Below, piece after piece: positions 5,099-22,622 of a DNA stretch of 64,000 bases. The stretch is from Halopelagius longus. Its GTDB lineage: Archaea > Halobacteriota > Halobacteria > Halobacteriales > Haloferacaceae. The translations under genes were made by a program, and so were the position numbers. The notes under the pieces were generated by a model. That model was not told the origin of the DNA and searched no databases. It saw nothing but the letters and a program-made list of their open reading frames with translations. The number at the start of each line of letters is the position of its first letter. The first letter of the stretch is position 1. The stretch is from the NCBI RefSeq assembly GCF_900100875.1, contig NZ_FNKQ01000002.1, forward strand, positions 744,001 to 808,000, written 5' to 3'.

Positions 5099-5820
5099 TA
5101 CTGGGCGGTCCCGTCGTCGTACGCCGACTCGAAGAACGCGACTTCTAACTCGACGGTTCGGCGGAAGAGGCGTTCGAGTCGCCGCCGACGGCGGGACGAG
5201 GCGGCCTCGCCCTCCCGGTCGAGTTCCGCGCGCAACCACGCGACGAACGCCTCGAACTCCTCGTTCGCGTGGAGGTCGATCCACTCCGCGAGGTAGAACC
5301 GCGAGGGCGACTCGTCGCGGACGGCGTCGGCCCACGCCAGATACACCCACTCGGCGGGCACGAGGACGGCGAGGGCCTCCGCGTACCCGCCTTCCGTCCC
5401 GGCCCGGCGCAACAGGTCCTCGAAGGCCCGCGTCGTCTTCGTCGTCGTCGGGTCGGCGTACGCCGACTCGGGGACGCCGAGGGCCTCGAAGGACCGCTCG
5501 AAGTAGTCGTTCTCCTCGGCGGTGAGCGTCCCGAGGAACTCCGCGAGTCGTCCCTTCGACGCCATCGTCGGCGCGTCGCCGACTGCGTGGCCGAACGTAC
5601 CGACGAGCGTTTCGAGGAAGGCGTAGTCCTGCAGCAAGTACCGCCGAAACGCGTCGTCGTCGAGTTCGTCGCTTCCCAGTTCTCGCGTGAACCGGTGCCC
5701 CGTCGCGTCCGACCACGCCGGTTCCGCGCGTTCGCGGAGCCAATCGGTGAACCGTGCCTCTTCGCGCGCCTCGGCGTACGCGTCGTAGGTGTCGGGGACG
5801 TTTCCGCCGTCGGTGTACAT
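5095..5820 (-). CDS. tenA: TenA/thiaminase II-like protein (TenA_E type)
   Basis: A 241-residue all-helical TenA-family protein. Thiaminase II and TenA-like enzymes salvage the pyrimidine moiety of degraded thiamin (thiazole and pyrimidine precursors) in the cytosol. The conserved F-x-R-Y-L-L-Q-D-Y-x-F-L motif is at about residues 62-73, and Y-A-E-A-L-A-V-L-V-P-A-E-W-V-Y-L-x-W-A is at about 147-165. The position of the catalytic Cys of the TenA_C class is not Cys here, and no Cys occurs in the protein, which fits the TenA_E class that uses a Glu. ATG 5820 was chosen because a TATA-like element lies 30 bases upstream. Confidence 0.85.
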   Translation of the reverse strand: MYTDGGNVPDTYDAYAEAREEARFTDWLRERAEPAWSDATGHRFTRELGSDELDDDAFRRYLLQDYAFLETLVGTFGHAVGDAPTMASKGRLAEFLGTLTAEENDYFERSFEALGVPESAYADPTTTKTTRAFEDLLRRAGTEGGYAEALAVLVPAEWVYLAWADAVRDESPSRFYLAEWIDLHANEEFEAFVAWLRAELDREGEAASSRRRRRLERLFRRTVELEVAFFESAYDDGTAQY

Positions 5821-19663: not shown

Positions 19664-20497
19664 TCACTCCTCGGCGGTCCCGATTCGACCCCCGAGGACC
19701 GCGTTGACGACGGCGCCGCCCAACAGCAACAGTCCCGCGAGGTAGAGCCACAGAGCGAGGAGGATGAATCCGCCGAATACGCCGTACGTCCGGTACTCGC
19801 CCGTCAGTTCGAGGTAGAACTCGAAGATGCGCTGGAGGAACGCCCACCCGACGCCCGCGACCACCGCCCCGGGAATCGCCTCCGCGACGGAGACGTCCAC
19901 GTCGGGAAACAGGAGGTACAGGGGGAGGAACGCCACCGTCGCTCCGAGGACCACCAACAGCGAACGGACGTACTCCAACCCCGGAAAGCCGCGAACGTCT
20001 CCGAGTCCGACGGTCGCGCCGTAGAACGCCAGCACCGCGAACACCACCGCGAAGAACGCCACCGCCCCGTCGTGAACCCGGTCGACCAGCGAGTCCTCGC
20101 CCGTCGTCCCGTAGACGGCTGAGAACGCCGTATCGAGCCGCCTGAATACCTTGAGCGTGCTCCACAACAACACCCCGACGCTCAGTACCGACGCGCGGAA
20201 GCGGTTCTGGTCGTCGGTGATGACGTCCGCGACGAGGAGCGTCTCGCCCGGCGTCAGGTAGCGCTCGGTGCTCTCGACGACGAACACGGCCAGCGGTTCG
20301 TCCACGACGAACCCCGTCACGACGAACAGCAGAAAGAGGAGCGGGAGAAGCGACACGAGAGCGTGGTACGCGAAGCTTCCGGCGAGCAACGGGATGTTCT
20401 GCTCGCGAATCTCCCGGCGGACGGTTCCGACCACGACGACGACCCGGTTCGTGCGAACCCGTCGCCGGAGCGACTCGATTCCGCGCACGAGTCGCAT
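19664..20497 (-). CDS. YihY/BrkB family membrane protein
   Basis: A 277-residue protein with about six transmembrane helices. It opens with the family's R-E-x-N-I-P-L-L-A-G-S-F-A-Y-H-A-L-V-S-L-L-P pattern at about residues 31-52, an A-x-Y-G-T-T-G-x-x-S segment near 130, and the C-terminal E-Y-R-T-Y-G-V-F-G-G-F-I-L-L-A-L-W-L-Y region near 237-255. The protein is a membrane factor of uncertain function (older name: ribonuclease BN-like). The ATG at 20497 is the only good start. Confidence 0.88.
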   Translation of the reverse strand: MRLVRGIESLRRRVRTNRVVVVVGTVRREIREQNIPLLAGSFAYHALVSLLPLLFLLFVVTGFVVDEPLAVFVVESTERYLTPGETLLVADVITDDQNRFRASVLSVGVLLWSTLKVFRRLDTAFSAVYGTTGEDSLVDRVHDGAVAFFAVVFAVLAFYGATVGLGDVRGFPGLEYVRSLLVVLGATVAFLPLYLLFPDVDVSVAEAIPGAVVAGVGWAFLQRIFEFYLELTGEYRTYGVFGGFILLALWLYLAGLLLLGGAVVNAVLGGRIGTAEE

Positions 20498-20576
20498 CCA
20501 CGGGACGCGGGGGTTTGTAAAACTCGGCCGGAAGAGCGACAGCGGATGTCTCTCTGCGCACGATTCGTCGCGAAAA

Positions 20577-20590
20577 TGCGCCGGCCGGGA
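20577..20590. repeat. Short copy of the tRNA-Gly 3' end (14 bp)
   Basis: The 14 bases TGCGCCGGCCGGGA match the 3' acceptor/T-arm sequence of the tRNA-Gly gene at 20744. This is the furthest of two partial copies and stops after GGGA. Confidence 0.6.
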
Positions 20591-20641
20591 GTACCACGAG
20601 CAACGCGAGTGGTACGTCGGGCGGCGTACGACCGCAGGGAG

Positions 20642-20663
20642 TGCGCCGGCCGGGATTTGAACC
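20642..20663. repeat. 22-bp copy of the tRNA-Gly 3' end
   Basis: Bases 20642-20663 (TGCGCCGGCCGGGATTTGAACC) match 20744-20765, the acceptor and T-arm of tRNA-Gly. A partial anticodon-arm-like stretch (GATTCAGAATCCC) follows at about 20691-20703. Such 3'-half copies are typical att-site remnants of integrases or of broken tRNA genes. Confidence 0.65.
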
Positions 20664-20743
20664 GCGGTCGCTCGCTGATGCTCGCTCCCTGATTCAGAAT
20701 CCCGTCGTAACGCATTCGCTCGTCACGTTCGTTCCTCGCAGAA

Positions 20744-20814
20744 TGCGCCGGCCGGGATTTGAACCCGGGCCATGAGCTTGGAAGGCTCAGGTCCTACCAC
20801 TAGACCACCGGCGC
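20744..20814 (-). tRNA. tRNA-Gly (TCC anticodon)
   Basis: A 71-nt tRNA on the minus strand without intron. The acceptor stem is seven perfect base pairs (GCGCCGG with CCGGCGC) and the discriminator is A. The D-arm contains GTCTAGTGGTAGGAC. The anticodon loop reads CTTCCAA, giving anticodon TCC for GGA codons. The T-loop region is GGTTCAAATCC. No CCA is encoded, normal for archaea. The nearest clear promoter is about 170 bases upstream (at 20987), with a structured leader between. Confidence 0.95.
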
Positions 20815-20822
20815 TCACTCAC
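20811..20822. repeat. 12-bp direct repeat, copy 1 (tRNA 5' end)
   Basis: GCGCTCACTCAC here spans the tRNA 5' end and leader, and is repeated exactly at 20960-20971. Confidence 0.75.
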
Positions 20823-20842
20823 GCTGTTCGTTCGCGCCGAGC

Positions 20843-20952
20843 CTCCACCTCGTGACACTCGGTGGAGACACCGGCGCACTCGTCTCGAACGTCGAGACGT
20901 TGACGAGACGCTTCGCGTCTCGTCCGCCAACCAGAGCGCTTCGCGCTCTGGT
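20843..20952. repeat. Four consecutive hairpins upstream of tRNA-Gly
   Basis: Four perfect inverted repeats follow each other: CTCCACC/GGTGGAG (20843-20867), CGTCTCGA/TCGAGACG (20881-20899), GACGAGACG/CGTCTCGTC (20902-20924) and ACCAGAGCG/CGCTCTGGT (20930-20952). The last two have the same CTTCG loop. They lie in the predicted leader transcript of tRNA-Gly and are non-coding. The role is unknown. Confidence 0.7.
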
Positions 20953-20959
20953 GACGCCA

Positions 20960-20971
20960 GCGCTCACTCAC
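20960..20971. repeat. 12-bp direct repeat, copy 2
   Basis: An exact second copy of GCGCTCACTCAC. With the copy at 20811-20822 it brackets about 137 bases holding the four hairpins, as if an insertion duplicated the tRNA leader. Confidence 0.75.
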
Positions 20972-20986
20972 CTCTTTTCGACGCCA

Positions 20987-20993
20987 CAATAAG
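20987..20993 (-). promoter_or_regulatory. Likely TATA box of the tRNA-Gly transcript
   Basis: CTTATTG on the minus strand is the only TATA-like element between the tRNA and the next gene. Transcription would begin near 20962, inside repeat copy 2. Confidence 0.45.
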
Positions 20994-21068
20994 GGTGTTA
21001 CTCTTCGCGTTCGTCGTCCGACGGTAGTTGACACGACCCGCACCGACGGACGGCGGTCGAACCGCGAC

Positions 21069-22622
21069 TCACTCGCCGGTCGAACAGGTTCGGTGCACGA
21101 GTTCGACGCGCCGGGTCGGTTCCGGGCCGTCGAACCGGGTCGGCTGTTCCACGTAGTAGACGGTGACGTTGGTCAAGGCGTCCTCGTGACTGCCGTTCCA
21201 GCGCCGACAGAGGTAGTCGCCGAACGCCGCTTGGAGTGTCTCGTGTCCGGGGCTGACCGCGCCGACGAGGTACTTCCGCCAGCGCGCACTCGGATACATC
21301 GCCAGCGTGGCCGGGCGTTCGTCGCCGACGACCGACGACTCGCGGAAGGCGTCCACTCGCTCGCCGGATTCGAGCGTTCCGGGCGCGGCGTACCAGCCGT
21401 CGACCGTCGGGGGGTTCGGCGCGAACATCGTCCACGTGTGGTCCGTCGGACTCAACCGCGAGTCCGTCACCGGAGCGGCGACCAATCCGACCGCGATGGC
21501 GTTCCAGACGAGCATCACCGCCAGCAACGCGGCGACGACGGCGGGAGCGACGCGCCCCGCGTACCGACGGCCCGCCGCCGCCGCCGATGCGAGCGACGCG
21601 AGCGAGGACGCCCCGAATGACGACGACTCGGCCGACGACGACTGCGCTCGGGAGCGACATCCGTCGAGTGCGGCATCGATGCCGACCCGCCGCGCCGACC
21701 GTTCGACCGGGTTCGACAGTCGGGCGACCAGTCGGTCCCACGCCGAGGCGGGAAGGAACACGAGAAGGGCGGTGAGCGTGACGAGCGGAAACAGCCCGAG
21801 GCGGAGCGTAAGCAGCATCCCGAGGTGCATCCCGACGAAGAGCGAGACGAACGCCGTCCGCAGTCGGTCCCGGAGGAGGATCAAAAACACAGACGAGAGG
21901 ACCATCCCCATCCACGCCGTGTCGACGGCGTGGAGGAGCGTCGGAAACTCGGCCAGCGAGTCCCCGATCAGGACGGTGAACTGCTGGAGGCTCAGGACGT
22001 ACCGTACCGCGTCGCCGCCGACCCAGAGATCGCTTCGGAGTTTGAACGCGGCGTTGACGGTGTACATGACGACGACTTGGAGCAACAGCGCGGCGGACGC
22101 GAGGCTCGCCACGCGCCGCCTCGGCGCGCCGTCGCGCCGAAGCGCGTCGAGCGACCACCGCTCCTCCAACGGGAGAAAGAGGCTCCAGAGGAGGAGTCGC
22201 CACAGGAGGGAGTCGCCGCCGTTCAACACGCCGGGATTGCGGGCGTACAGCGAGGTGAGGAGGACGAACGACGAAAGCGTCGCTATCCGGGTTCGGTATC
22301 CCACGAGTAGCGATAGCGCACACGCCCCGGCGAGGACGAAGAGCAGGGCTTGAAACCACGCGTCGCCCGACAACGCGTGAATCGAGAACCGCGAGAGCGT
22401 CGGGTACTGTTCGGAGAGCGCCGCCCGCGGGAGGACGCCGGCGTCGGTGTAGAACGCGGCGAGGTTGCGCGAACGGAGCAGCAAGTCGACGACCAAAAGC
22501 AGACCGAGCGAGACGCGAAACGCCGCCAGTGCGCGCGTGTCGATGCCGAGTCGGACCGCGAGGGCGGAGGAGAGACGAGCGCGGGCGCTCGTCGCGGATG
22601 GAGGGGAGTCCGTGCTTCCCAT
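21069..22622 (-). CDS. HTTM (vitamin-K-carboxylase-like) membrane protein
   Basis: A 517-residue integral membrane protein with about eight or more helices. The N-terminus has R-L-G-I-D-T-R-A-L-A-A-F-R-V-S-L-G-L-L-L (about 24-43), and N-P-G-V-L-N-G-G-D-S-L-L-W-R-L-L-L is at about residues 128-144. This is the HTTM domain of the gamma-carboxylase-like family. The C-terminal 120 residues are a soluble, probably extracellular segment (T-D-H-T-W-T-M-F-A-P-N-P). Its substrate in archaea is unknown. No partner gene is nearby. The start ATG 22622 is well placed. Confidence 0.88.
   Translation of the reverse strand: MGSTDSPPSATSARARLSSALAVRLGIDTRALAAFRVSLGLLLVVDLLLRSRNLAAFYTDAGVLPRAALSEQYPTLSRFSIHALSGDAWFQALLFVLAGACALSLLVGYRTRIATLSSFVLLTSLYARNPGVLNGGDSLLWRLLLWSLFLPLEERWSLDALRRDGAPRRRVASLASAALLLQVVVMYTVNAAFKLRSDLWVGGDAVRYVLSLQQFTVLIGDSLAEFPTLLHAVDTAWMGMVLSSVFLILLRDRLRTAFVSLFVGMHLGMLLTLRLGLFPLVTLTALLVFLPASAWDRLVARLSNPVERSARRVGIDAALDGCRSRAQSSSAESSSFGASSLASLASAAAAGRRYAGRVAPAVVAALLAVMLVWNAIAVGLVAAPVTDSRLSPTDHTWTMFAPNPPTVDGWYAAPGTLESGERVDAFRESSVVGDERPATLAMYPSARWRKYLVGAVSPGHETLQAAFGDYLCRRWNGSHEDALTNVTVYYVEQPTRFDGPEPTRRVELVHRTCSTGE

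Follow-up and report, generated by a model that had tools for sequence, protein, structure and literature searches.

The leader of ∼150 bases that separates a haloarchaeal tRNA-Gly gene from its promoter is a composite of a dispersed two-hairpin repeat and a tRNA leader module, and its tRNA-adjacent part (20815-20877) belongs to an undescribed family of leader modules at tRNA-Gly and tRNA-Gln. The window is the whole stretch of 64,000 nucleotides that was analysed (G000:C2:744001-808000, in genome G000), and all features described below lie on its minus strand.

A composite leader between promoter and tRNA

The tRNA-Gly gene (anticodon TCC; 20744-20814) was called by ARAGORN and matched Rfam RF00005 with 71 bits. 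Upstream of it are a linker, GAACGAACAGCGTGAGTGA (20815-20833), and the proximal module, a 44-nt hairpin (20834-20877; −31.1 kcal/mol) whose 5′ arm GCGCCGGTG is identical to tRNA nucleotides 1-9 and whose 3′ arm CGGCGC is the complement; the partner is exact at an offset of 38, within the 36-38 used to define a module. Beyond it lies a distal module-like stretch (20878-20963) that starts with the head GCGCTGG (20963-20957, read towards the tRNA) and continues with a copy of the dispersed repeat (20896-20958), arranged as GGCGTCACC-hairpin 1-TTGGCGG-hairpin 2-CAACGTC, and a third hairpin (20881-20899). The sequence GTGAGTGA ahead of the distal head (20964-20971) is repeated ahead of the tRNA, and a TATA-like CCTTAT (20989-20994) is located 31 nt upstream of the distal head.

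A first-pass annotation of this locus had described a 12-base repeat of the tRNA start, four perfect hairpins and a TATA-like element found only beyond the distal copy. The repeat is present (GCGCTCACTCAC at 20811-20822 and again at 20960-20971) and, when extended, is identical at 14 of 15 positions with a spacing of 149 nt. CCTTAT is the sole match to the promoter motif used within 330 nt upstream of the tRNA, and we agree that ∼150 nt of structured RNA were set between promoter and tRNA by the duplicated tRNA start. Three hairpins are indeed perfect, namely hairpin 1 (20930-20952) and hairpin 2 (20902-20924) of the dispersed repeat, each with 10 bp and a triloop, and the third hairpin, with 8 bp and a triloop; however, the fourth (20834-20877) is imperfect and contains a tandem GA/GA internal loop.

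The predicted fold of the 161-nt leader was more stable than that of shuffled sequences (−95.6 kcal/mol versus −67.7±4.4; z = −6.4), and none of 200 shuffles reached so low a value. Hairpins with a stem of at least 9 numbered 12 in the window, two of them in the leader, compared with a mean of 3.5 in eight first-order Markov sequences. Because exact direct repeats of 12 nt spaced by no more than 200 nt occur 151 times in the window (1-11 times in ten Markov sequences), the 12-nt near repeat by itself is weak evidence. The distal head, GCGCTGGCG, differs from the tRNA at two positions and was missed by our head-copy search, and no CGGCGC partner was seen in 20878-20963; this stretch would be a decayed or overwritten module. 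When Rfam covariance models were run on positions 20400-21200 of the window, only tRNA scored above the gathering score.

Modules that track the acceptor sequence of their own tRNA

A module of this family consists of a hairpin of 42-44 nt plus a linker. The hairpin opens with a copy of the first ∼11 nt of the tRNA that it precedes, continues into a capped apical stem and closes with a stretch complementary to the copied nucleotides. Two main types were distinguished, K (GGTGAG-stem-GA) and P (GTGTC-stem-GA-loop); both contain a single tandem GA/GA loop, and a triloop is usual. A kink-turn reading of the tandem GA loop was dropped on inspection, since the loop-adjacent pairing fits no clear C-stem.

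The tRNA-Gly set started from 100 loci, of which 30 came from a search with the leader in the query, with a possible bias to similar leaders, 29 were new loci from a search with the tRNA only, 40 were hand-picked from the list of that second search, with a preference for a single locus from each genus, and the remaining one was the G000 locus for tRNA-Gly(CCC) (L052). Once duplicates and short alignments were dropped, 95 distinct loci were left. Head copies, defined as 9 nt with at most one mismatch within 250 nt upstream, preceded the tRNA in 39 of these 95 loci. The corresponding numbers out of 95 were 5 on the downstream side, 7.7 with shuffled heads and 3.8 with heads taken from other tRNAs. 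Of 86 tRNAs other than tRNA-Gly in G000 and the congener G001, one, a tRNA-Gln, had a head copy before it. Altogether 58 candidate modules were found in 36 tRNA-Gly loci, and 22 of the 58 carried an exact complement of nucleotides 1-6, mostly at offset 36 or 38 (2.1% of shuffles). We retained 44 as strict modules, which precede tRNA-Gly in 34 of the 95 haloarchaeal loci.

Each module tracks the acceptor sequence of its own tRNA. Nucleotides 1-7 equalled those of the following tRNA in 40 of the 44 strict modules, a count that is biased by the selection of heads with at most one mismatch. The 3′ arm matched the head of its own tRNA at 244 of 264 positions in the strict modules, which none of 5000 permutations equalled, and the tRNA variants GTGCCGG, GCGGCGG, GCGCCGA and GCGGCGA reappear in their own modules. 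Covariation was strong in both types: 24 cells were changed on both sides in the K type (shuffled mean 7.0) and 30 in the P type (shuffled mean 8.3), with 0 of 500 shuffles reaching either value and both far above slid controls. The 3′ arms pair with tRNA nucleotides 1-11, including the TGGT that lies outside the acceptor stem.

An exact-pattern search of named genomes returned 58 matches, of which 40 lay directly before tRNA-Gly, 39 under haloarchaeal titles and one in a ‘Euryarchaeota archaeon’ MAG; the genera include Halorussus, Haloarcula, Natrinema and Halorhabdus, and Haloferax larsenii is also among them. Of the 18 matches without a recognised tRNA, 17 were bacterial and were attributed to chance, and the other was in a Euryarchaeota MAG. 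In the latter (L337, ∼5194-5258) the module is followed by a tRNA-Gly-like start with no tRNA called, perhaps an intron-containing or broken gene. We rejected the possibility that the K-type hairpin is itself a dispersed repeat, as one such hairpin sequence was present in 4 of 40 genomes, a single time in each and always before tRNA-Gly or tRNA-Gln. The tRNA-Gly(CCC) leader of G031 (L029, ∼1227-1501) contains four successive head copies in ∼275 nt. Rfam matched only the tRNA in eight loci, most of them with modules, and we did not find the family in Rfam or in the open-access literature, most subscription journals being outside the reach of the search.

We took 30 of the tRNA-Gln matches listed and judged the layout of copy and hairpin by eye. 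Copies of the Gln head with the same layout were found upstream in 11 of 30 loci and downstream in none. Insertion at tRNA-Gln, duplicating 12 nt of the tRNA start, is shown by empty and filled sites: G000 is empty and G001 filled, with nearly identical upstream flanks, and the 66 nt that are extra in G001 begin with 12 nt that copy the tRNA start exactly. A second set within one genus has G076 empty and G127, G132 and G160 filled. In G027 the tRNA-Gln leader (L384, 1372-1556) has two modules, one of them a P type with two further hairpins in its apex, a nested two-hairpin element that resembles the nesting proposed for the window.

The idea that modules occur at all tRNAs was rejected. We tested 161 tRNA genes: 45 from G000, 45 of the 46 from G001, and 71 of the 134 detected in G028, G036 and G120. 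Of the 34 that have TGGT at positions 8-11, 10 were preceded by a head copy, compared with 1 of the 127 that do not; two of these 11 copies, at a G120 tRNA-Asp and a G120 tRNA with TAGC, look like chance. The module-bearing tRNA families so far are two, both with TGGT at positions 8-11. Since no module was recognised at 61 of the 95 tRNA-Gly loci or at 19 of the 30 tRNA-Gln loci, the module is dispensable.

Promoter spacing, the dispersed repeat and the 3′ flanks

In the 61 tRNA-Gly loci without a strict module, the promoter motif lay 31 nt from the tRNA in 23, 32 nt in 3 and elsewhere in 9, and it was not found in 26. A distance of 31 nt also separates the promoter from the first head in the window, L004, L028, L145 and L158. 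As the promoter is as far from the distal head of the window as it is from the tRNA in module-free loci, transcription of the window's tRNA probably starts at the distal copy. The spacing to the topmost strict module was 30-38 nt in 7 of 34 loci (L003, L004, L028, L145, L151, L154 and L158), or 8 of 34 if the distal head of the window is counted, with the others longer or unassigned; in the named genomes it was 31-127 nt or no promoter was found. Longer spacings are perhaps due to less perfect copies lying in between.

A dRNA-seq study of H. volcanii (PMC4983044) reports that 39 of 52 tRNA genes have a proximal start, that the leader of tRNA-Gly(CCC) is exceptionally long at 300 nt and that tRNA-Gly(TCC) lacks a proximal start. 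In Haloferax larsenii we found a module at tRNA-Gly(TCC) and none at tRNA-Gly(CCC). Thus, modules do not explain the 300-nt CCC leader of H. volcanii, and agreement with that study, judged via H. larsenii, is confined to TCC.

The dispersed repeat was first noticed in a search of 40 genomes with the tRNA and its leader, in which a stretch of the leader (∼query 53-115) was found again at sites without a tRNA. A search across the family gave a match in 32 of 60 genomes, short matches counted, with 7 in G000, 15 in G003 and 17 in G046. An alignment of 18 copies, 17 of them distinct, had 97.3% pairing in the two helices and six pairs changed on both sides, which 0 of 500 shuffles reached. The one other member of the genus that was compared, the congener G001, has the same promoter and tRNA and lacks the repeat there; its leader contains a single 53-nt module. 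In G033 (L041/L098) we observed tandem arrays away from tRNA genes with the same two-hairpin layout, constant linkers and varying hairpins. A test for open frames in the dispersed copies was uninformative, the DNA being GC-rich.

The ends of the 63-nt repeat, GGCGTCACC and CAACGTC, are not inverted repeats of each other in the alignment, as the terminal inverted repeats of a MITE would be. Near-terminal palindromes, as in PATEs or IS605-derived elements, are present in the form of two 10-bp hairpins. An IS605 or RAYT origin was nevertheless unsupported: the Y1 transposase (PF01797) had no match in G000 or G001, and no convincing repeat match was found around the 13 Y1 loci of G003 and G046. 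As far as the accessible part of PMC3119063 describes them, the PATEs and small mobile repeats of Haloquadratum resemble the 63-nt repeat in being short, non-coding, dispersed palindromic repeats of haloarchaea; PATEs are related there to IS605-type transposons, the transposase family not found in G000 or G001, and unlike PATEs the leader modules are bound to tRNA-Gly and tRNA-Gln. CGTC-tagged REPs, in the passages of PMC3733652 consulted, are likewise dispersed palindromes, often dimeric, with a CGTC tag beside the stem. Their stems are 8-9 bp and their loops 4-5 nt, whereas the 63-nt repeat has 10-bp stems and triloops, and the hosts named in those passages are bacterial phyla only.

Copies of tRNA ends also occur on the other side of the gene. 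Downstream of the window's tRNA lie a copy of its last 20 nt (20642-20661) and a second, diverged copy (20577-20596). Copies of a tRNA's own last 20 nt (at most four mismatches, within 400 nt) were found downstream of 23 of 45 tRNAs in G000 and 16 of 45 in G001, part of these matches being a neighbouring tandem tRNA gene, and upstream of 2 and 1; in 1676 tests with the tails of other tRNAs there were 4 matches. By eye, the copies lie in hairpins with an inverted T-arm strand. In G000 such units, made of half the T arm and the acceptor strand, occur up to three in a row, for example at 20577-20661 of the window and at L065 (G000:C3:314970). The 3′ copies differ between the congeners, pointing to fast turnover within the genus, whereas the 5′ flanks are conserved. 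These 3′ copies look like a mirror image of the leader modules. Partial copies that integrating elements leave downstream of a tRNA gene are likewise copies of its 3′ end, and the copy at 20642-20661 resembles them. Unlike such remnants, the leader copies derive from the 5′ end and form a hairpin with their own complement. Two partial tRNAs at prophages are described in the accessible text of PMC3119063.

Origin and possible roles of the modules

We consider it likely that these are transcribed haloarchaeal leader modules at tRNA-Gly and tRNA-Gln, and that the distal module of the window was further occupied by the dispersed repeat. Modules would arise by repeated duplication of the tRNA 5′ end together with an inverted complement, for example by template switching at palindromes, and would be inserted between promoter and tRNA in a way that leaves the spacing from the promoter to the first copy roughly normal. 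This insertion step is based on the promoter spacing observed at some of the loci and on the empty and filled sites within genera. Since it starts with the tRNA's ∼11 nt and ends with their complement, the module imitates the acceptor stem of the downstream tRNA. In the window, a copy of the two-hairpin repeat would then have come to occupy the distal module. Transcription would begin near 20963-20968, a few nucleotides ahead of the distal copy; the hairpins would fold during synthesis, and RNase P would remove the leader, possibly cutting at each tRNA-like head. A regulatory role, with an effect on tRNA supply, may follow from this arrangement.

The first-pass annotation proposed instead that one small mobile palindromic element had landed downstream of the promoter, with duplication of a 12-15 bp target. 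In its favour, the palindromic repeat at 20896-20958 also occurs at unrelated places and is missing from the leader of G001, and the insert is bracketed by the 14/15 repeat. However, the repeat makes up only 63 of the 149 nt, and the tRNA-adjacent hairpin belongs to a different, old family that is bound to tRNA-Gly and tRNA-Gln in several haloarchaeal families; the hairpin block is not one element. The prospect that the block is an ancient leader of all tRNA-Gly loci holds in part for this last hairpin (34 of 95 loci) and is false for the first two hairpins. The 30-nt flanks of the dispersed copies listed show no constant target duplication, as sought for a MITE, by eye, and the duplicated tRNA head of the window has another explanation, as the module family itself copies the tRNA start and accounts for the repeat equally well. 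With PF01797 absent from G000 and G001 and no convincing copies at the Y1 genes of G003 or G046, we regard a single mobile element as improbable. It seems to us about equally improbable that the modules are relics of tandem tRNA genes, the first copy having collapsed to an acceptor-stem hairpin kept for processing by RNase P and tRNase Z. G000 does have tandem tRNA duplicates, both acceptor-stem arms are retained, and the promoter-to-head spacing equals the promoter-to-tRNA spacing in several loci. Against this, the interiors are a few conserved hairpin types common to tRNA-Gly and tRNA-Gln and unlike tRNA arms, the pairing of 3′ arms extends to the TGGT outside the acceptor stem, and no intermediate decayed tRNA was seen.

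T-box riboswitches and attenuators use leader strands that pair alternatively with tRNA sequence, and the modules share this potential but are archaeal and lie in the leader of the tRNA gene itself. In folding models the copied head and its complement could swap partners with the two acceptor strands of the tRNA, and natural leaders were predicted to disturb the tRNA at equilibrium: mean acceptor-stem pairing across 36 loci was 0.97 in the isolated tRNA and 0.05 when the natural leader was attached; it was 0.02 when the module bodies were shuffled and 0.42 when the whole leader was. A bistable leader might therefore control tRNA maturation by an attenuator-like four-strand exchange, in which the head pairs with the tRNA 3′ end and the module 3′ arm with the tRNA 5′ end. 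The native arrangement lay above the MFE by a mean of 2.9 kcal/mol (range −0.2 to 7.0; 36 loci), the MFE showed exchanged helices in four of five loci inspected, and both arms are conserved against their own tRNA. Yet any self-complementary copy of a tRNA head gives this exchange automatically, acceptor pairing did not differ between natural and body-shuffled leaders (Wilcoxon p = 0.75), and the conditions of ViennaRNA are not haloarchaeal, so that we give this switch very little credence. For the same reason, namely equal acceptor pairing with natural and body-shuffled leaders, the idea that the complement shields the tRNA from the copied head (decoy-proofing) was unsupported at equilibrium. 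Co-transcriptional folding would favour formation of the module hairpin first. A neutral by-product, in which palindromes at tRNA ends grow by template switching during replication and have no function, would agree with the patchy presence of modules, with rapid gain and loss that extends to the 3′ flanks and with the strong hairpin excess across the window. The covarying stems, the fixed size of 42-44 nt and the near-identical K-type hairpins across families point rather to constraint or transfer, and we think such neutrality rather unlikely.

Archaeal tRNA leaders are usually thought to be short and featureless. Leader modules of the kind that we favour, hairpins that copy the acceptor stem of their own tRNA, would open a testable question on tRNA processing or dosage, and they would also raise the question of how a sequence keeps duplicating itself at tRNA ends. 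A bolder possibility, offered tentatively, is that a self-copying RNA module of haloarchaea spreads along tRNA-Gly and tRNA-Gln leaders, each time doubling the 5′ end of the local tRNA together with its complement, so that tandem acceptor-stem mimics would serve as processing decoys or as a folding switch, with a mirror-image process at 3′ ends. For some isoacceptors, long unexplained tRNA-Gly leaders such as those in Haloferax may be owed to these modules.
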